Shown in pieces: positions 16,600 to 51,306 of a stretch of DNA of 55,454 bases. A model generated the notes under the pieces. It searched no databases. It saw only the letters and a program-made list of their open reading frames with translations, and was not told where the DNA came from. Each line of letters opens with the position of its first letter. The first letter of the stretch is position 1. The translations under genes and the position numbers were made by a program. Origin of the DNA: Nitrincola sp. (GTDB lineage Bacteria > Pseudomonadota > Gammaproteobacteria > Pseudomonadales > Balneatricaceae); NCBI GenBank assembly GCA_021208565.1, contig JAJOJN010000135.1, positions 1 to 55,454 of the forward strand. The letters run 5' to 3'.

Positions 16600-16672
16600 A
16601 CCCTTCTACGCATATTTTTTATAATTTTTTATTTTTGTTTGTTTTTTGATCGATTTAGTGAGGATTAGCTTA

Positions 16673-16774
16673 GTTGATGTATTAGTTGTCATGCGACACG
16701 CTTTTCGTCGTCCTTGACCGCTCGCTGACGCCATCCATGGCGTCACACGGTCTCATGACAACCAATACACCAAC
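16673..16774 (+). repeat. Dispersed hairpin repeat, copy A
   Basis: An imperfect long hairpin. Outer arms of 21 bases (16673-16693 and 16754-16774) pair with two mismatches. Inside, the palindrome TGACGCCAT-CC-ATGGCGTCA (16726-16745) forms the apex. The 5' side between arm and apex is long (32 bases, containing ACACGCTTTTCGTC and TTGACCG), while the 3' side is only 8 bases. The inner part matches copies B and C, but the outer arms do not. It fills most of the gap between tRNA-Asp and syd; nothing else was seen there apart from the tRNA promoter. Confidence 0.85.
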
Positions 16775-16879
16775 TCTTTTGGACTCATCTTGCTAAAAAA
16801 TCTATCAGCCAATACAGTACCTCATCGACCGACAAAATTAGCAACGACTAAGAGTCAACATCTACAAACGAGTTTAGTA

Positions 16880-17446
16880 ATGAGTAAAGAACCATCTGAA
16901 GTCCATCTAGCACTTAAGCAATTTATGCAAAAAGTCACCGGGATGTGCGAAGAAACCGGTTGGCCACAACTGCCTTATGATAAAGAGTGGCCGAGTGAGT
17001 GCTGGCAGCATGAGGCTGATGAGGGGGTTTTAACGCTTTGGAAGCCGGTTCAACAAACGGTCGCTAATGACATGTTTGAACGCTTAAGTCTCGCACTGGA
17101 AACCGACATACATCCTGATATCAAAGACTATTACAGTGTATTTTGGTCTGATCCATTACCCGCAAAAGCCTCCCAGGGTGAGCTTTCTTTGATTCAAGTA
17201 TGGAACCCAGAGGATCTTGAGCGCCTAAGAGCCAACCTCATCGGTCACGCCTTGGAAAAGAAACGTCGAAAATTACCTTTAACACTGTTCTTTGCAGTCA
17301 CTCTACCCGATGGTAATCTAGTGCTGAGTTTAGACAACGCTGATGGCAGTATCTGGTTAGAGTCACCTGGAAAGCCACCTCATCAGCGACTTGCCAATTC
17401 TTTGGCTGAATTTATTAGACAACTTGAACCCATACCCTTTGAATGA
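16880..17446 (+). CDS. syd: Syd, SecY-interacting protein
   Basis: The C-terminal half has the Syd signature IQVWNPEDLERLRANLIGH followed by KRRKLPLTLFFAV. Syd is a small cytoplasmic protein that binds SecY at the inner membrane and is proposed to check or remodel abnormal translocons. The ATG at 16880 (MSKEPSEVHLALKQF) is preferred over an in-frame start at 16790, giving 188 residues, the normal size. Its stop overlaps or closely precedes the yajG start, so the two are probably one transcript. Confidence 0.88.
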   Translation: MSKEPSEVHLALKQFMQKVTGMCEETGWPQLPYDKEWPSECWQHEADEGVLTLWKPVQQTVANDMFERLSLALETDIHPDIKDYYSVFWSDPLPAKASQGELSLIQVWNPEDLERLRANLIGHALEKKRRKLPLTLFFAVTLPDGNLVLSLDNADGSIWLESPGKPPHQRLANSLAEFIRQLEPIPFE

Positions 17447-17457
17447 GAGGTATTATC

Positions 17458-18036
17458 GTGCGCTTAGTGAGCTTAATTGCTGTTGTTTTTTTTGCGAGCC
17501 TTTTGACTGGCTGCTCTGGCCCGTCTCCTCACCGAATCAATCTTTCTCCAGAGGTGGTTTCAGCCCCTCGTTTACCCCAGTCCGTGCCTGTTCGTGTGGA
17601 TGTGAACTACCCTTCTCTACAACTGAAAATCGGCACAGTGGCTGATCGATTGGGTAATGAGGTCCCTGTTTGGGTAACGGATAACATTCGAAATGAAATT
17701 CAACGAGCAGCCACACAAACGCTTAATCGAATGGGCGTCGTGACCACATCAAATGCTAATGCCCAACTCACTTTGACCATAGATCATTTAAGCTACAACC
17801 TTCGCAGTGATGGTATCCGTCGTGAATTAGTGGGCAACATGCGTGTGAGCATGCAAGTCATCGATGGCAACAGACGCTACAATGGTCGCTTTGAATCTAA
17901 TCGCAGAGAAGAGATCGTCATTACACCAACTGAGTCCAGATCTATTGAGTTTATCAACGCGCTGGCCAGTGATGCTCTATTTGAAGCCTTCAATGATCCA
18001 GAGTTTACACGCTTCATGATCGCTGGAGCGCGTTGA
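17458..18036 (+). CDS. yajG: YajG-family lipoprotein
   Basis: The N-terminus is a lipoprotein signal peptide, with a hydrophobic stretch then the lipobox LTGC at about residues 16-19, so the mature protein is a lipid-anchored envelope protein. The rest (VRVDVNYPSLQLKIGTVADR, then a repeated NRMGVVTTSNANAQLTLTID-type strand) matches the YajG family, of unknown function. I chose the GTG at 17458 because GAGAGG lies 7 bases upstream; an ATG at 17443 overlapping the syd stop is possible. Convergent with msrB. Confidence 0.8.
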   Translation: MRLVSLIAVVFFASLLTGCSGPSPHRINLSPEVVSAPRLPQSVPVRVDVNYPSLQLKIGTVADRLGNEVPVWVTDNIRNEIQRAATQTLNRMGVVTTSNANAQLTLTIDHLSYNLRSDGIRRELVGNMRVSMQVIDGNRRYNGRFESNRREEIVITPTESRSIEFINALASDALFEAFNDPEFTRFMIAGAR

Positions 18037-18041
18037 TCGAC

Positions 18042-18449
18042 CTAAAGCGGTTTATGCTTGAGCGCCACTGAGTTGATGCAATAACGCAAACCAGTGGGCT
18101 CAGGCCCATCTTCGAAAACATGCCCCAAGTGAGACTCACAACCGGAGCAAGTTACCTCTGTTCGAATCATGCCATGAGAGCGATCTTGATAGGTATTGAC
18201 TAGACCCTCTTGAGCCACCTGCCAAAAACTGGGCCAACCACATCCAGCATCAAACTTATGCTCTGAGCTAAAGAGCAACTGACCGCAAGCAACGCAGTGA
18301 TAATGTCCTGGTTCATTAAACTTGTCATACTCACCTGAGAAGGGTCGTTCAGTTCCCTTTTGTCGGCAGACATAGAAGGCTTCTGGGGAAAGTTTTTCCT
18401 GCCAATTGACTTCCTCTGCCATCACAGCATCATCAGTTTTATTTACCAT
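18042..18449 (-). CDS. msrB: Peptide-methionine (R)-S-oxide reductase
   Basis: MsrB repairs oxidised methionine (R-sulfoxide). The zinc-binding pairs are visible as CVACG and [12 protein letters not shown], the substrate motif as GCGWPSFW, and the catalytic cysteine in RYCINS near the C-terminus. The length of 135 residues is that of a stand-alone domain. The ATG at 18449 is preceded by GGAG at 6 bases; the upstream GTG at 18461 overlaps that site and is unlikely. Confidence 0.95.
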
Positions 18450-18599
18450 AAGTGACTCCACAGAATATTTCTTTGAGAAACAGGCTTAGAACATTGAATT
18501 TAGTCGGCCAGCGCGTATCATAAGCGCCTTCGGGCCATCCGTCCGGCCCTTCTTTATCTATACGTCACAGCGCCTTGGATGGAGCGCAGGATTATTATC

Positions 18600-19814
18600 A
18601 TGCCTGTTATTCGCAAATCTAACAAACTCATTAACGTCTGCTACGACATTCGCGGCCCCGTCATGCAAGAAGCCAAGCGCTTAGAAGATGAAGGGCATCG
18701 CATCCTCAAACTGAATATCGGCAATCCAGCGCCTTGGGGCTTTAACGCACCGGAAGAAATCGTTCAGGATGTGATTCTGAACTTACCTGAATCACAAGGC
18801 TACTGTGACTCTAAAGGAGTTTTTTCGGCACGCAAGGCTGTCATGCACGAGTGTCAACGCAAATCGATCAAGCACGTGACACTTGAAGACATTTATATCG
18901 GCAATGGTGTTTCTGAACTCATTGTGATGGCCATGCAGGGGCTATTGAACGACAACGATGAAATGCTCATCCCCTCCCCCGATTATCCATTATGGACAGC
19001 AGCCGTGAGCTTATCTGGCGGCACACCTGTTCATTACCACTGTGATGAAAGCAACGAATGGTATCCTGATATAGAGGACATGCGCAGCAAAATCACAGAG
19101 CATACTCGTGGAATTGTTGTCATTAACCCCAACAACCCTACCGGCGCTCTTTATCCTGAATCCTTGTTACTTCAGATATTAGAACTCGCTCGCGAACACA
19201 ATCTTATTGTCTTCGCGGACGAGATCTACGACAAGATACTTTACAACGGTGCGGAACACACCTCGCTTGCATCCCTCGCTGAGGATGTTTTGTGTCTCAC
19301 CTTTAATGGCCTATCCAAAACCTATCGAGCAGCAGGTTTTCGCTCAGGCTGGATGATCATTAGCGGGCCTAAACATCGTGCACGAGATTACGTTGAAGGA
19401 TTAGACATGCTGGCTAGCATGCGTCTTTGCGCAAACGTTCCCGCACAGTATGCGATTCAAACGGCGTTAGGTGGTTATCAAAGTATTAGTGAACTGATTG
19501 TGCCAGGTGGGCGCTTGCACGAACAAATGGAGTTGGCGCACAGAATGCTGAACGATATACCTGGGGTGTCCTGTGTTAAACCGAAAGGGGCACTCTATCT
19601 GTTCCCTAAACTCGATCCAGAGATGTACCCAATTCAAAATGATGAAAAATTTGCCCTAGACTTGTTGCAACAACAAAAGGTATTGGTTGTCCAAGGTACT
19701 GGATTTAACTTGGAAGACACACAACATTTCAGACTGGTTTTCTTACCGACAGTTGATTTGTTGAGCGAAGCGATTGAACGCATTGCAAACTTTTTAAAAA
19801 CCTACGAGCAGTAG
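18600..19814 (+). CDS. alaA: Alanine-synthesising aminotransferase AlaA-like
   Basis: A class I PLP aminotransferase of about 404 residues. It shows IGNPAPWGF at the N-terminus, PDYPLWTAAVSLSGG, the VINPNNPTGALY loop, the ADEIYDK aspartate, and the PLP lysine in LSKTYRAAGFRSGW. These match AlaA/YfbQ, which makes alanine from pyruvate with glutamate as donor. The ATG at 18600 (MPVIRKSNKL) agrees with family starts; a purine-rich GCAGG stretch precedes it. A stand-alone gene. Confidence 0.9.
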   Translation: MPVIRKSNKLINVCYDIRGPVMQEAKRLEDEGHRILKLNIGNPAPWGFNAPEEIVQDVILNLPESQGYCDSKGVFSARKAVMHECQRKSIKHVTLEDIYIGNGVSELIVMAMQGLLNDNDEMLIPSPDYPLWTAAVSLSGGTPVHYHCDESNEWYPDIEDMRSKITEHTRGIVVINPNNPTGALYPESLLLQILELAREHNLIVFADEIYDKILYNGAEHTSLASLAEDVLCLTFNGLSKTYRAAGFRSGWMIISGPKHRARDYVEGLDMLASMRLCANVPAQYAIQTALGGYQSISELIVPGGRLHEQMELAHRMLNDIPGVSCVKPKGALYLFPKLDPEMYPIQNDEKFALDLLQQQKVLVVQGTGFNLEDTQHFRLVFLPTVDLLSEAIERIANFLKTYEQ

Positions 19815-19890
19815 ATCTTTTCTCACACACTCGGTCTATACTCATTAAGGTAGTTTGGGATAAACGATTAACTTAGGAAAGACAGCCAAT

Positions 19891-20259
19891 ATGTTTATTA
19901 AAATCAAAAAGAACAGTGGTATTTCCATGCAGCACAATGGTATCGATAAGCGCCATATCGTGCCTGTAACCTCTAACTTTCTACTCAACCTCAATTTAGT
20001 GGCCGAGGCATCTTTTTATACCCTGAAAGAAAATAAAGTACGTTATGATCTTGACCAGCGACCTATTGATTTGCCAATGCACACCGCGGTCATACACTTA
20101 CAAATGAACTATGTTTATTCGCTTTCTCTCGACCCTAAAAGCAAGACGCATAACCAAGTTGCAGAAAGACAGTTCTACAAACTTTTTTTCAGACCCGAGA
20201 ACCTAGAACCATATCAAGAGCTTCGTTCCGCGATAGAAACGCAAGTCGCTAATCTGTAA
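19891..20259 (+). CDS. Hypothetical protein, 122 residues
   Basis: I do not recognise this protein. It is basic at the N-terminus (MFIKIKKNSG), has no membrane segment or signal peptide, and reads as a mixed alpha/beta cytoplasmic protein with a charged middle (SLDPKSKTHNQVAERQFYKL). An AGGAAAG site lies about 11 bases before the start. It sits 76 bases after alaA on the same strand and is followed by a hairpin at 20281, so it is probably the last gene of its transcript. Confidence 0.55.
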   Translation: MFIKIKKNSGISMQHNGIDKRHIVPVTSNFLLNLNLVAEASFYTLKENKVRYDLDQRPIDLPMHTAVIHLQMNYVYSLSLDPKSKTHNQVAERQFYKLFFRPENLEPYQELRSAIETQVANL

Positions 20260-20280
20260 CCATCATAATAATCAACGTGT

Positions 20281-20312
20281 CGAGATGCTTATCCCCTGAG
20301 CTAAGCATCTCG
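20281..20312 (+). terminator. Hairpin between the 122-residue gene and htpX
   Basis: An 11-base perfect stem, CGAGATGCTTA (20281-20291) with TAAGCATCTCG (20302-20312), around a 10-base loop. Only a weak T stretch (TGCCTTT) follows, so it may be a weak terminator, an mRNA stabiliser or an htpX leader element. Confidence 0.5.
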
Positions 20313-20390
20313 TGCCTTTCAGGTTGAAACTTTGCCCGACTGCCCCCATCTAAATAACAAATTTTAAATCTGCTTAAACTATGGAACTTA

Positions 20391-21283
20391 ATGACGATGA
20401 GAATATTACTCTTTCTTGCCACTAACCTTGCCGTGCTGTTAGTCGCGAGCATTACACTGAGCATTCTAGGGGTCGATCATTACCTTCAAGGTAGTGGTTT
20501 AAATTTGACATCACTGCTGATTTTTTTGTGCTGTGTTTGGCTTTTGCGGGATCATTTATCTCGTTATTTATGTCCAAGTTTATGGCCAAAAAATCAACCA
20601 ATACTCAGATCATTACCCAGCCACGCAATGAAGATGAGCGCTGGTTAATGGAGACGGTAGCAGAGCTATCTGAGAAAGCAGGCATTAAAATGCCTGAAGT
20701 CGGCATCTTTCCTTCTCAACAGTCTAATGCCTTTGCGACTGGATGGAACAAAAACGATGCGCTGGTTGCAGTAAGTACAGGTTTATTGCAACGCTTTCGC
20801 CGGGAAGAAGTTCGTGCAGTGATGGCGCATGAGATAGGGCACGTTGCCAATGGTGACATGGTCACCTTATCTCTCATTCAAGGGGTGGTAAACACCTTTG
20901 TGATGTTCTTCGCTCGTATTGCTGCTCATATCGTGAACAACTTTGTTAACCGTGGTCAGGGCGGTGAGCGCGGTATTGGCTATTTCGTGACGGTAATCGT
21001 GTTCGATATTATTTTCGGCATTTTAGCATCGGTGATTGTGGCGTGGTTCTCTCGCAAGCGCGAGTTTAGGGCCGATGAAGCAGGTGCGACTCTGGCAAGT
21101 CCTGCGGCGATGATCAGCGCGTTACAGCGACTTAAAGCAGAACAAGGCATACCTGATCAGATGCCAGACCAGATGATGGCATTTGGAATTAACAGCCACT
21201 TGAAAGATGGCTTCATGAAGCTATTATCGACTCACCCACCACTGGATGATCGTATCGCTGCACTGATGCAACGCGGCAGATAA
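20391..21283 (+). CDS. htpX: Membrane zinc protease HtpX (one frame change)
   Basis: HtpX degrades damaged membrane proteins, alongside FtsH. The two N-terminal membrane segments ([19 protein letters not shown] and, after correction, [12 protein letters not shown]) are followed by SKFMAKKS, the zinc motif [25 protein letters not shown], and the third ligand region RADEAGA. The frame changes at the T7 run 20521-20527, where one more T restores about 297 residues, close to the E. coli protein. A clean terminator follows at 21289-21318. Confidence 0.93.
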
Positions 21284-21288
21284 ATCTC

Positions 21289-21318
21289 AATCAGGGCGCT
21301 ACCAGCGCCCTGATTTTT
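21289..21318 (+). terminator. Rho-independent terminator after htpX
   Basis: The perfect 10-base stem TCAGGGCGCT / AGCGCCCTGA (21291-21300, 21304-21313) with an ACC loop is followed by TTTTTATC. It lies 6 bases after the htpX stop and ends before the convergent ATP-grasp gene. Confidence 0.9.
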
Positions 21319-21323
21319 ATCTC

Positions 21324-22148
21324 TTATACCGCAATAGGTAAAGGGGGTTCGGGACGATCAGGGTCGATAGGATCGTCATCCTTTTCCGCCTGGCTTTGCA
21401 AATACGCCAGAATAGCATCCGCAACACGCACATGCAGATCAGGCAAGCCCGTATTACCAAATAGGCGATTGAACTCAAGTAGGTAAGGATGATCGCCTAC
21501 CATGGCAATATCAAAACCAGCATGATCAAGATCGAGTTTTTCAGCTAGTTCTATCGCCAGTGCAACGGCTGCAGGATGTAAGGGGCTGATATCAACCTGC
21601 CCACCTCGAGCCACGTTGTTGTGAAAACCATCCTGTCCCTGTAGCCGCCAATATCCAGCCACAAATTTCTTCCCGACCAACACGATCCGCATATCACGAT
21701 CGATGGGAAGATACTCTTGTACATAAAGCACATCCGTTTTTGCCAAATAAGCATTCCAATCGGCTTTATTTTCAATCAGGAAAACCCCTTCCCCCATGGA
21801 GCTTTTCGGAATTTTAGCCACAAAGGGTAAATCCATCTTATCCCAAAGCATTTCAGCTCTTGAGGGGGTGTTAGGTTCAATTTCAGTCCAAGGCGTATTA
21901 TCCGGTGCCATCAGCTTAAAGGCACGGGTCATCTCAATCTTGTTATGACCTAACAAGTATGAGGCATGACTTGGAAAAATTTTCTTTTTCAGCCCAAAAA
22001 CAATGGCATTCACCTGCCAATATTCAGGGAAGAGCACCCAGTCAGCCGCAAGTATCTCTTCTTTTTGGCGAAACATTTGCTCTGGTTTAAAAACAGTCAC
22101 GTCAGGAAGACGAAGGGTTCGGAACGCATCAAAGGATACGAGTTTCAT
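21324..22148 (-). CDS. ATP-grasp protein, RimK-like
   Basis: A 274-residue protein whose middle and C-terminal parts follow the ATP-grasp fold. Visible are VAKIPKSSMGEGV (ATP-binding lysine and glycine loop), YVQEYLPIDRDMRIVLVG, the AGYWR strand, and the metal-binding end YLLEFNRLFGNTGLP. The RimK/glutathione-synthase branch joins amino acids to carboxylates, but the substrate here is not predictable. The C-terminus is proline- and aspartate-rich (DDDPIDPDRPEPP). It stands alone between htpX (convergent) and the decarboxylase (divergent). Confidence 0.75.
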   Translation of the reverse strand: MKLVSFDAFRTLRLPDVTVFKPEQMFRQKEEILAADWVLFPEYWQVNAIVFGLKKKIFPSHASYLLGHNKIEMTRAFKLMAPDNTPWTEIEPNTPSRAEMLWDKMDLPFVAKIPKSSMGEGVFLIENKADWNAYLAKTDVLYVQEYLPIDRDMRIVLVGKKFVAGYWRLQGQDGFHNNVARGGQVDISPLHPAAVALAIELAEKLDLDHAGFDIAMVGDHPYLLEFNRLFGNTGLPDLHVRVADAILAYLQSQAEKDDDPIDPDRPEPPLPIAV

Positions 22149-22292
22149 TTAAGATCAGTCGGTAGTTGAATTGCGCGAATTTTAATCTGAGATTTATGCC
22201 GAGTCGATTACTTTTTGCACTAGATAGCAGCCGCTTGATTTCATACAATAGCCCCCGCAGGAACCAGCCGGCCACGCGCCTCCCGCAATAGT

Positions 22293-22316
22293 ATTGTCAT
22301 ACAAATAAATGACAAT
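22293..22316. promoter_or_regulatory. Inverted repeat upstream of the amino-acid decarboxylase
   Basis: ATTGTCAT (22293-22300) and ATGACAAT (22309-22316) form a perfect 8-base inverted repeat with an 8-base A/T-rich centre, ending 32 bases before the decarboxylase start. Position and symmetry suit an operator, but I cannot name the regulator. Confidence 0.4.
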
Positions 22317-22348
22317 CTTCACTCACTTTGAACCACAGGCTGCCATTC

Positions 22349-24604
22349 ATGAAGTTCCGTTTTCCCGTCATCATAATCGATGAAGATTTCCGTTCTGAAA
22401 ATATCTCTGGCTCAGGCATTCGTGACCTGGCGCAAGCCATCAGCAATGAAGGTATGGAGGTGGTTGGTTTCACCAGTTATGGTGACCTCACCTCTTTTGC
22501 TCAACAAGCCAGTCGTGCTTCTTGCTTTATATTATCCATCGATGATGAAGACTTTGCCGATGCCGACGAAGACCCATCTGGCTGCGCCTTAAACGCCGTG
22601 CGTGACTTCATCCTTGAAGTTCGCAAGCGTAATGCCGATATTCCAGTATTTCTTTACGGTGAAACGAGAACCTCACGTCATATCCCTAATGATATTCTCC
22701 GTGAGCTGCACGGTTTTATTCATATGTTCGAAGACACGCCAGAATTTGTGGCTCGACACATTATCCGTGAAGCGAGAAAGTACTTAGAAAACCTAGCGCC
22801 ACCTTTCTTCCAAGCGTTAATGGAATATGCCAGCGACAGCTCGTATTCATGGCACTGTCCAGGGCATTCGGGTGGTGTAGCTTTTTTTGAAAAGTCCTGT
22901 TGGACAGATGTTTCATCAGTTCTTTGGTGAGAACCTATTACGAGCCGATGTCTGCAATGCCGTTGAAGAACTCGGACAACTACTTGATCATACGGGTCCT
23001 GTGTCTGCCAGTGAGTCCAACGCCGCGCGTATTTTTTAATGCCGATCATCTGTTTTTTTGTAACCAACGGTACCTCTACCTCGAATAAAGTGGTTTGGCA
23101 CTCTACTGTCGCGCCTGGTGATATTGTCGTTGTCGATCGTAACTGTCATAAGTCGATTCTTCATTCGATCATCATGACCGGTGCTATTCCAGTTTTTCTA
23201 ATGCCAACCCGAAACCACTACGGGATTATCGGTCCTATTCCTAAATCGGAGTTTGACCCACAAACGATTCAGCGAAAAATTGAGCAAAACCCCTTCGCTC
23301 GCGAAGCGGTCAATAAGAATCCACGCATTCTCACTATCACGCAAAGTACCTATGACGGCGTACTTTACAATGTAGAAACGATTAAGACGATGCTGGGCGA
23401 TACCATCGATACCCTTCACTTTGATGAAGCTTGGTTGCCGCACGCCTCTTTCCACGAATTTTACAAAGATATGCATGCGATAGGCAGTGATCGTCCACGA
23501 TCTGAAAATGCACTGGTTTTTGCGACGCAATCCACGCACAAGCTACTCGCTGGTTTGTCACAAGCCTCGCAAATACTTGTTCAAGATGCTTCATCGCGTA
23601 AGCTGGATACACATCGCTTTAATGAATCCTACTTGATGCACTCTTCTACTAGCCCGCAGTATGCCATTATCGCATCTTGTGATGTTGCGGCCGCGATGAT
23701 GGAGCCTCCTGGTGGTCATGCTCTGGTTGAGGAATCCATTCTGGAAGCCTTGGACTTCCGTCGCGCCATGCGCAAGGTGGATGAAGAGTTTGGCAGTGAT
23801 TGGTGGTTTAAGGTCTGGGGACCTGACTATCTTGCCGAAGAAGGTATCGGTGATCGTGATGATTGGGTCATCCATGCTGGCGACACGTGGCATGGCTTTG
23901 GTGAAATCGAATCTGGTTTTAATATGTTGGACCCGATCAAAGCCACCATCATCACACCGGGTTTAAATCTGGAAGGTGAATTTGATGAACAGGGCATTCC
24001 CGCCGCTATCGTCAGCCGATACTTAGCCGAGCACGGTATTATCATCGAAAAAACAGGGCTTTACTCTTTCTTCATCATGTTCACCATCGGTATTACCAAA
24101 GGTCGTTGGAACTCGATGGTGACTGAGCTTCAGCAGTTTAAAGATGATTATGACCGCAACCGCCCACTGTGGCGCGTGATGCCTGAGTTCGCTAAAAAGT
24201 ATCCAGCCTACGAACGCATCGGCCTTCGCGACTTGTGTAATCAGATTCACTCGGTTTACAAAGAGTATGACGTTGCACGTATCACCACTGAAATGTACCT
24301 ATCTGAAATCGAACCGGCAATGACACCGGCGGATGCTTGGGCACGTATGGCGCATCGTGATGTGGAGCGTGTGTCGATTGATGAGCTAGAAGGTCGCGTG
24401 ACTGCGATGTTAGTGACGCCCTACCCTCCGGGAATTCCGTTGCTGGTTCCAGGCGAGCGCTTTAACCGCACCATCGTTCGTTACCTGCAGTTTGCACGTG
24501 ATTTTAACGCGCTCTTCCCTGGGTTTGAGACGGACGTGCATGGATTGGTACGCGAGAAGACGCCAGAGGGCGATAGGTATTTTATTGATGTGGTGAAGAT
24601 GTGA
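22349..24604 (+). CDS. Arginine/lysine/ornithine decarboxylase, large PLP type (three frame changes)
   Basis: A fold-type I basic-amino-acid decarboxylase of about 751 residues after correction. The N-terminal wing (receiver-like) domain begins MKFRFPVIIIDEDFRSE; the PLP core contains SWHCPGHSGGVAF, FVTNGTSTSNK, VDRNCHKSILHS, and the PLP lysine in ATQSTHKLLAGLSQ. Frame changes fall at T7 22882-22888, T6 23032-23037 and T7 23053-23059; deleting one T at each restores the protein. The product would be agmatine, cadaverine or putrescine, which the sequence does not settle. Members act in acid resistance or polyamine supply. The gene stands alone, without an antiporter. Confidence 0.87.
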
Positions 24605-24670
24605 TCAGTAGTTAGCTTCTTCTATCATTGATAGATTTGCCTATCGTAGTCAGCTTCGCCTATTGTAGTT

Positions 24671-24780
24671 AGTGCGAGCAGGCAGTGCTGATTTGTGACA
24701 CGCTTTTCGTCATCCATGACCGCTCACTGTCGCCATCCATGGCGACAGACGGTCCCAAATCAGCACTCCCTACTCTCCCT
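24671..24780 (+). repeat. Dispersed hairpin repeat, copy B
   Basis: Arms 24681-24699 and 24752-24770 pair with two mismatches and extend imperfectly to 24671 and 24780. The apex palindrome CTGTCGCCAT-CC-ATGGCGACAG lies at 24727-24748. As in copy A, the 5' inner segment is long (27 bases, with ACACGCTTTTCGTC and ATGACCG) and the 3' one short (3 bases). The inner sequence is close to copy A, while the arms are unrelated to it. Located 66 bases after the decarboxylase stop. Confidence 0.85.
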
Positions 24781-24997
24781 CCAAACCCCCGTGATAACAT
24801 CGATTAATGGATTCATTGAATTCATGTGTTTACGCTTTCTAATACATCACCACACAACTCTGTTGATTGGATGAGTGGGTATAAACGCCTGAATCCTGCA
24901 ACATGTTTAGACATTGAGGAATCTCACATTTAACGCAGCACAAGGCTTAGTGTAGGATGATGACCTTTATCATTGAACAACCTACTGAACTGTGGAG
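24781..24997. other. Non-coding stretch between repeat copies B and C
   Basis: About 215 bases with no open frame of note, no recognisable RNA and no clear promoter or terminator. With the two flanking repeats it makes the longest gene-free region of the window (24605-25160). Confidence 0.6.
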
Positions 24998-25101
24998 GGA
25001 TGATGGGTTTGGGATTGCATGACCCTCTGCGCCATGGATGGCGCAGTGGAGCCATCAGGGACGATTTCAAGGCGTGTCATGCTATCCCGAATCCATCATC
25101 C
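24998..25101 (-). repeat. Dispersed hairpin repeat, copy C (inverted orientation)
   Basis: Arms of 26 bases at 24998-25023 and 25076-25101 pair with four mismatches. The apex palindrome CTGCGCCAT-GG-ATGGCGCAG lies at 25027-25046. Read on the minus strand, the order is arm, TGACACGC, TCGTC, apex, GGTC, arm, exactly as in copies A and B, with a 29-base 5' inner segment and a 3-base 3' one. The inner segment has diverged more than A and B have from each other. Sixty bases downstream of the DUF5610 gene. Confidence 0.8.
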
Positions 25102-25160
25102 CAACAACTTACTCAAGATCAAACCTCCAGTTCATAAAACCCTCAGAACATCCCAGCCAG

Positions 25161-51134: not shown

Positions 51135-51210
51135 TGGCGTCCCATAGGGGGTTCGAACCCCTGTTACCGCCGTGAAAGGGCGGTGTCCTAGGCCACTAGA
51201 CGAATGGGAC
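51135..51210 (-). tRNA. tRNA-Glu (TTC)
   Basis: Minus strand starts GTCCCATTCGTCTAGTGG and ends CTATGGGACGCCA with encoded CCA; the anticodon loop CTTTCAC gives TTC. It lies 20 bases after tRNA-Gly on the same strand and shares its promoter. Confidence 0.97.
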
Positions 51211-51230
51211 GTTTAGGAATCTTAAACACT

Positions 51231-51306
<76 letters not shown>

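Follow-up and report, generated by a model that had tools for sequence, protein, structure and literature searches.

Dispersed, often outward-facing TwoAYGGAY-type elements in gammaproteobacterial genomes as putative CsrA/RsmA docking or decoy sites

The window analyzed here is an entire contig of 55,454 bases (JAJOJN010000135.1) belonging to a 2.7 Mb draft genome of Nitrincola sp. It carries three intergenic elements, A, B, and C, that an earlier note had described as a hairpin repeat with a constant inner core and copy-specific pairing arms. Copy A is flanked by a tRNA-Asp gene and a plus-strand Syd-family gene, and B and C sit between two converging genes, one for an Orn/Lys/Arg decarboxylase and the other for a DUF5610 protein. 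We recovered all three elements, with their inner order, at the positions given before. The informative strand is nevertheless opposite to that first described, namely minus for A and B and plus for C. Read on that strand, every copy has a long stem of variable sequence, inside which lie two hairpins with A-N-GGA-N loops, an arrangement resembling the TwoAYGGAY RNA motif (Rfam RF01731; Weinberg 2010, PMC2864571). The earlier view is further corrected in that B and C form a single outward-facing pair, and A resembles the survivor of such a pair. The features are as follows (strands are those of the RNA-like reading).

16666..16781, minus: copy A, TwoAYGGAY-type element (100.3 bits; opposite strand 16.8 bits)
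16754-16774 and 16673-16693, minus: arms of copy A
16726..16745, minus: copy A hairpin 1, loop AUGGAU (16733-16738)
16707..16718, minus: copy A hairpin 2, loop AAGGAC (16710-16715)
16820..16834, plus: probable remnant of copy A's lost partner, end of the 3′ arm (by eye against the G006 and G008 orthologues)
24666..24785, minus: copy B, left half of the outward-facing pair (covariance model match)
24727..24748, minus: copy B hairpin 1, loop AUGGAU (24735-24740)
24709..24720, minus: copy B hairpin 2, loop AUGGAU (24712-24717)
24786..24990, no strand: spacer of the B/C pair
24991..25108, plus: copy C, right half of the B/C pair (covariance model match)
25027..25046, plus: copy C hairpin 1, loop AUGGAU (25034-25039)
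25054..25065, plus: copy C hairpin 2, loop AGGGAC (25057-25062)

On this strand, the apex palindrome of A, B, and C becomes a hairpin with the loop AUGGAU. The long 5′ segment of the earlier description is present, but on the opposite strand it is the second hairpin with a GGA loop instead of unpaired filler. Its loop is AUGGAU, AAGGAC, or AGGGAC in the window copies, and its stem in the first five copies is GUC/GAC, AUC/GAU, GCC/GGC, or CCC/GGG (by eye). The folds of A, B, and C beat 200 dinucleotide shuffles (z = −7.65, −6.34, and −7.45, respectively; 0/200 as good). Further copies were sought and found, with BLAST returning five in the genome, the three included, and a covariance model returning 11 at E ≤ 3.5e-4. 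Among these 11, the arms are unrelated between copies (mean identity 0.40 versus 0.39 after shuffling; 1/55 pairs at 0.75 or above, this one being a local duplicate). They also pair within each copy, as had been claimed, although the mismatches on the strand first read include A·C, which is G·U on the opposite strand.

All three window copies match RF01731 over its full length and in the same orientation with respect to the core, with genome-wide E values of 0.003–0.018. Like TwoAYGGAY, they have two A-Y-GGA-Y-like hairpin loops in the same order, and the outer closing stem of the Nitrincola copies lacks conserved sequence, as in that motif. CsrA binding was already proposed for TwoAYGGAY in 2014, with the external stem noted as not well conserved (PMC4333381), and a 2025 preprint places its two loops on hairpins of differing stability (PMC11661157). 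Unlike TwoAYGGAY, the window elements have wider loops (A-N-GGA-N, including 5-nucleotide (nt) loops) and a shorter hairpin 2 with a 3′ bulge. Only B contains AYGGAY in both loops; A and C contain it in hairpin 1 and have a purine at position 2 of hairpin 2. Because their scores (29.3, 29.6, and 32.6 bits) lie below the RF01731 gathering cut-off of 43 bits, we file the window copies as a variant of the TwoAYGGAY kind. Two other loci, L323 and L324, pass that cut-off and also match R1, a covariance model built from five copies of the Nitrincola genome, at the same place and strand (49.1/54.0 and 44.6/47.2 bits). When 18 of the at least 120 named loci described below were scanned at gathering cut-offs, no Rfam family matched. 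Copy C has a weak match to Ysr224 on its opposite strand (22.6 bits against a cut-off of 70), which was taken as palindrome noise.

The element is dispersed well beyond this genome. With R1, matches at E ≤ 0.1 occurred in 22 of 57 relatives (the Nitrincola genome included), reaching 57 in one genome. In a sample of 276 genomes from the class, at least 42 had matches at E ≤ 0.001, representing at least 38 of 216 genera; in this sample, with at most 15 candidates per genome scored for R1 and 9 for RF01731, positives are lower bounds for both scans. A pattern scan of named genomes, a set that may overlap with the other genomes sampled, yielded at least 120 stretches that are gammaproteobacterial by name, apart from a few metagenome-assembled genomes labeled only Proteobacteria or Pseudomonadota. 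Genera among the matches listed are Stenotrophomonas, Xanthomonas, Marinobacter, Rheinheimera, Microbulbifer, Alteromonas, Shewanella, and Yersinia. Of the other pattern hits, one lies on a viral contig and one, L008, was taken as chance. Distant-mode blastn found no plasmid or phage match for a Stenotrophomonas maltophilia copy or for the B/C region, and phage or plasmid carriage was rejected for these queries; the same mode found no match in Escherichia coli genomes for a Sodalis copy.

The arms also bear on the question of strand. We scored only Watson–Crick pairs, so that neither strand was favored; an A·C on the scored strand is a G·U on the other. The first set, 112 matches from which one on the wrong strand was left out and identical copies were collapsed, comprised 103 copies. 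Their arms contain 2239 Watson–Crick pairs, 156 G·U pairs on the TwoAYGGAY strand, 20 A·C, 121 other mismatches, and 10 gaps, with G·U outnumbering A·C in 68 elements, the reverse in six, and equality in 29. The second set drew on 99 of the at least 120 named loci plus one viral contig and comprised 137 copies, mostly from named genomes, after three of 140 were left out. It gave 2919 Watson–Crick pairs, 192 G·U, 35 A·C, 143 other mismatches, and 19 gaps (more G·U in 83 elements, more A·C in 10, equal in 44). The 11 Nitrincola copies alone show 20 G·U, 2 A·C, 16 other mismatches, and 2 gaps.

As a further test, we followed changes in place within 11 hand-chosen orthologue groups from the genus (the grouping took 109 of 117 matches, and the largest group, which repeated flanks had merged, was not used in that form). 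Under strand-neutral scoring, 16 changes led to G·U, one to A·C, and 17 to other mismatches, and 11 two-sided changes were still Watson–Crick. Counted on consensus structures, pairwise and thus not independently, 66 single changes keep pairing and 49 break it, while 28 double changes keep it and 9 break it; all 28 of the former belong to groups A (4), E2 (20), and H (4). Pairing is therefore maintained on one strand, and of the two alternatives raised by the earlier note, selection for a folded strand gains support from the G·U excess and from the compensatory changes in place in some orthologue groups. Single-stranded DNA of one strand is a possible alternative to RNA.

Template switching could restore palindromes. 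A functionless quasi-palindrome whose pairing is kept by such switching between the arms at replication would fit copies that lose partners and invert, as well as the many broken pairs seen among the orthologues of B and C. Because template switching acts equally on the two strands, no G·U bias is expected, contrary to the ratios of 156:20, 192:35, and 16:1, and the loops hold GGA though position 2 varies; we consider this explanation very improbable.

This loop conservation is pronounced in hairpin 1. Hairpins were counted only with Watson–Crick stems, which allowed hairpin 1 to be parsed in 98/103 and 115/137 copies of the two sets. In the second, A1, G3, G4, and A5 are present in 97/97 hexaloops, and position 2 is U in 59, G in 31, and A in 7 (non-U, 38/97), with position 6 also varying; the other 40 of the 137 copies have another or an unparsed hairpin-1 loop. 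In the first set, 69/72 hexaloops fit, and the remaining three have CTCCTG, which is the loop of the nested insert described below. That position 2 is free and positions 3–5 are fixed is not a search artefact, since the five copies used to train R1 all have AUGGAU or AUGGAA. The GGA of hairpin 2 is present in 112/113 copies of the second set, a count ascertained by the scan pattern. The two GGA triplets lie a median of 23 nt apart (range 11–28; 95/103 and 131/137 copies measured).

These are features expected of sites for CsrA/RsmA. A CsrA review gives ANGGAN as the RsmE hexaloop and states that a dimer bridges sites at distances of 10–63 nt, best above 18 nt (PMC7652899). All six window loops conform to ANGGAN in a short hairpin loop, and the median GGA spacing falls inside that range. 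The Nitrincola genome has two csrA matches. In the class sample, csrA was matched in 41/42 element-positive genomes versus 201/234 others (p = 0.038, with kinship ignored, positives being at least 42, and tables matched by eye).

Copies commonly face outward in pairs. Among neighbors within 400 nt, orthologous sites of several species being entered separately, 51 of 64 are arranged with the left copy on the minus and the right copy on the plus strand ('-+'), as in B/C; seven are '+-', four '++', and two '--'. Three of the seven '+-' cases lie inside '-+-+' arrays (L140, L168, L190), and the other four are not in such arrays within the fetched stretch (L123, L139, L191, L210). A single tandem array, L109, accounts for three of the four '++' cases. 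There (L109:3113-3745), four direct-tandem copies lie about 180 nt apart in A+T-rich sequence, contrary to the usual inverted pairs. The outward pair is thus a strong tendency, not a law. RF01731 itself behaves alike, with at least nine matches in a genome and all six neighboring cases '-+'. As to gene context, 10/53 copy groups overlap a mechanically listed open reading frame (ORF) of at least 90 amino acids (aa), and 19 pairs lie between convergent (3), divergent (6), or tandem (10) genes. With only 3/19 pairs convergent and no T-run excess, a role as the 3′ terminator of convergent genes was rejected.

Outward RNA strands in 51/64 neighboring copies and CsrA-type loops would also be expected if the elements were self-contained sponge small RNA (sRNA) genes of the CsrB/RsmZ kind, a pair being divergently transcribed from its spacer. 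The elements share with CsrB, RsmX/Y/Z, and RsmU of Xanthomonas (PMC7694677) GGA in short hairpin loops and paired sites at bridging distance. They differ from these sponge RNAs in having two sites only, many scattered copies, outward-facing pairs, and, in the scans made, neither promoter nor terminator signals of their own. Across 48 spacers, the mean best promoter score under a simple consensus was 7.66 versus 7.67 after shuffling; T-runs 3′ of 220 copy records (repeats included) numbered 18 versus 21 and 14 in random 30-mers, and the shortest spacers measure 41 nt. With promoter and T-run signals at control level, the elements lack the appearance of independent sRNA genes, and we regard this explanation as improbable. 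When RsmU of Xanthomonas was considered as a copy, a motif search of the fetched loci found no ComEA-like gene.

Comparison of orthologous sites supports mobility of the element. G000, G006, G008, and G009 carry the B/C pair, and five relatives (G001, G003, G005, G007, and G010) lack it at the same place; terminator-like hairpins with T-runs occupy the site in G003, G005, and G007 (by eye). The flanks of the empty sites (about 68–82% identity) are too diverged for a junction or target-site duplication to be read, and when the at least 120 named loci were searched for exact empty sites, one array difference was all that emerged. G010 has a pair two genes beyond the B/C site that is absent from the window. 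At the copy A site, G006 retains a full pair, G008 a partner without hairpin 1, and the window an arm remnant only, which shows that a pair can decay to a single copy. Copy E lies in the opposite orientation to its orthologues in G001, G002, G006, and G009.

The second alternative of the earlier note, a mobile core inserted into existing palindromes, was not supported and was rejected. In G010, 149/595 copy pairs share arms (2 after shuffling), so the arms there moved with the element, and the empty B/C sites of the five relatives contain no arms (by eye), where arms without the core would have been expected. Sharing is rare elsewhere (1/55 in the Nitrincola genome, 0/105 in G040, 0/21 in G054), and the unrelated arms there probably reflect later drift under pairing. 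Two copies in L018 of G000 (423-508 and 1501-1595), about 1.1 kb apart, have identical outer arms, a local duplication. In G009, the orthologue of copy B (L215) has several TAGTGCGAGCAGGTAG-like arm-start repeats in its outer flank (by eye). In some copies (L062:2072-2215, L067:2276-2419, L071:2327-2468, L038:1501-1646), hairpin 1 is interrupted by a nested insert, roughly 50 nt long, consisting of two hairpins with GGA-type loops on the opposite strand (by eye); this insert may itself be a dispersed element of another kind that inserts into this one.

These observations raise the question of whether the element is a non-autonomous mobile DNA repeat, similar to repetitive extragenic palindromic (REP) sequences and bacterial interspersed mosaic elements (BIMEs) or to miniature inverted-repeat transposable elements. 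Its hairpins would then be recognized by a transposase as single-stranded DNA, with GGA loops and G·T wobble serving transposition, not RNA. Such a repeat would account for the presence/absence at orthologous sites, the arms common to G010 copies, the nested inserts, and an orientation relative to neighboring genes that is close to random. The many copies, the inverted pairs and alternating arrays, and amplification in some species also recall REP/BIME elements with RAYT transposases (PMC2817692). The tabulated REP sequences are some 20–37 nt (PMC2817692), whereas our element is a branched fold of about 95–140 nt, under strand-specific G·U constraint, whose arms in the Nitrincola genome have no common sequence. 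Y1, the transposase family tested, showed no link to the element when 57 genomes were compared (Spearman 0.15, p = 0.27; Fisher p = 0.39), and in G001 no Y1 match accompanies its 16 copies; mobilization by RAYT was rejected on this lack of association. For two copy pairs that stand far apart, the intervening ORFs, read by eye, include no transposase and resemble a toxin-antitoxin pair and metabolic genes; the idea of cargo or a transposase there was rejected. The 16:1 excess of in-place G·U over A·C points to constraint after insertion. We judge an explanation by mobile DNA alone to be rather unlikely.

The interpretation that we mildly favor is that of a TwoAYGGAY-type structured RNA, dispersed in gammaproteobacterial genomes, often as outward-facing pairs, and forming a putative CsrA/RsmA docking or decoy site. 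In the RNA, the long stem of free sequence would close a junction with two small A-N-GGA-N hairpins whose GGAs lie about 23 nt apart, and a CsrA/RsmA dimer could bridge both loops. Each transcribed copy would then act as a docking site or decoy inside any transcript that crosses it, and since a pair faces outward, one half would be in working orientation whichever strand is transcribed. The once-mobile element would have spread by non-autonomous mobility.

Several results weigh against this interpretation. Beyond the subthreshold RF01731 scores, R1 matched only two of 10 RF01731 loci well, L326 weakly (11.8 bits), and seven not at all at E ≤ 1. Of the at least 21 genomes with RF01731 matches, only 7/21 also have R1 matches, and the two families thus occur mostly in different genomes. 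The control-level promoter and T-run signals and the near-random orientation to genes count likewise, as do the 49 single changes that disrupt pairing. In groups B and C, which represent the window's own pair, no two-sided change preserves pairing. Group B has 12 single changes that preserve it, 16 that break it, and 2 double changes that break it, and group C has 11, 21, and 3, respectively; some copies may therefore be decaying. Hairpin 2 is less uniform, with GGA in 87/97 parsed copies of the first set. The stable stems of hairpin 1 may be suboptimal for binding, by analogy with hairpins from systematic evolution of ligands by exponential enrichment (SELEX), which mostly have four or fewer pairs (PMC7652899). 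Finally, G230, an element-positive genome (7 copies, 98% complete), is not among the genomes with csrA.

A broader and more speculative version of the docking-site interpretation, which we hold only tentatively, is a mobile genome-wide CsrA decoy, selfish or domesticated, that seeds up to dozens of paired CsrA/RsmA sites. Outward pairs would ensure a sense decoy, and copy number and sites would tune or rewire the Csr regulon. TwoAYGGAY has so far been a motif with a predicted CsrA link. In publications naming it, supplementary files aside, we found no account of a dispersed or paired repeat, and an earlier description in such files is possible; searches by sequence strings and topic, at the level of titles, returned none on this repeat. 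The finding names a class of intergenic hairpins present in many genomes. A scattered, often paired, strand-constrained repeat in many gammaproteobacterial genera offers a testable case of a mobile element serving or parasitizing a global RNA-binding regulator.

Two other features of the window merit mention. Upstream of copy B, the Orn/Lys/Arg decarboxylase gene appears as two ORFs, 22328-22930 (200 aa) and 23039-24604 (521 aa). One of them encodes the N-terminal domain together with the beginning of the major domain, and the other the remainder; the split gene may be interrupted or misassembled. A tRNA-Glu/tRNA-Gly cluster at 51135-51306 is repeated at the contig end, 55315-55454 (77 nt and 26 nt identical), which is possibly the reason for the contig ending there.

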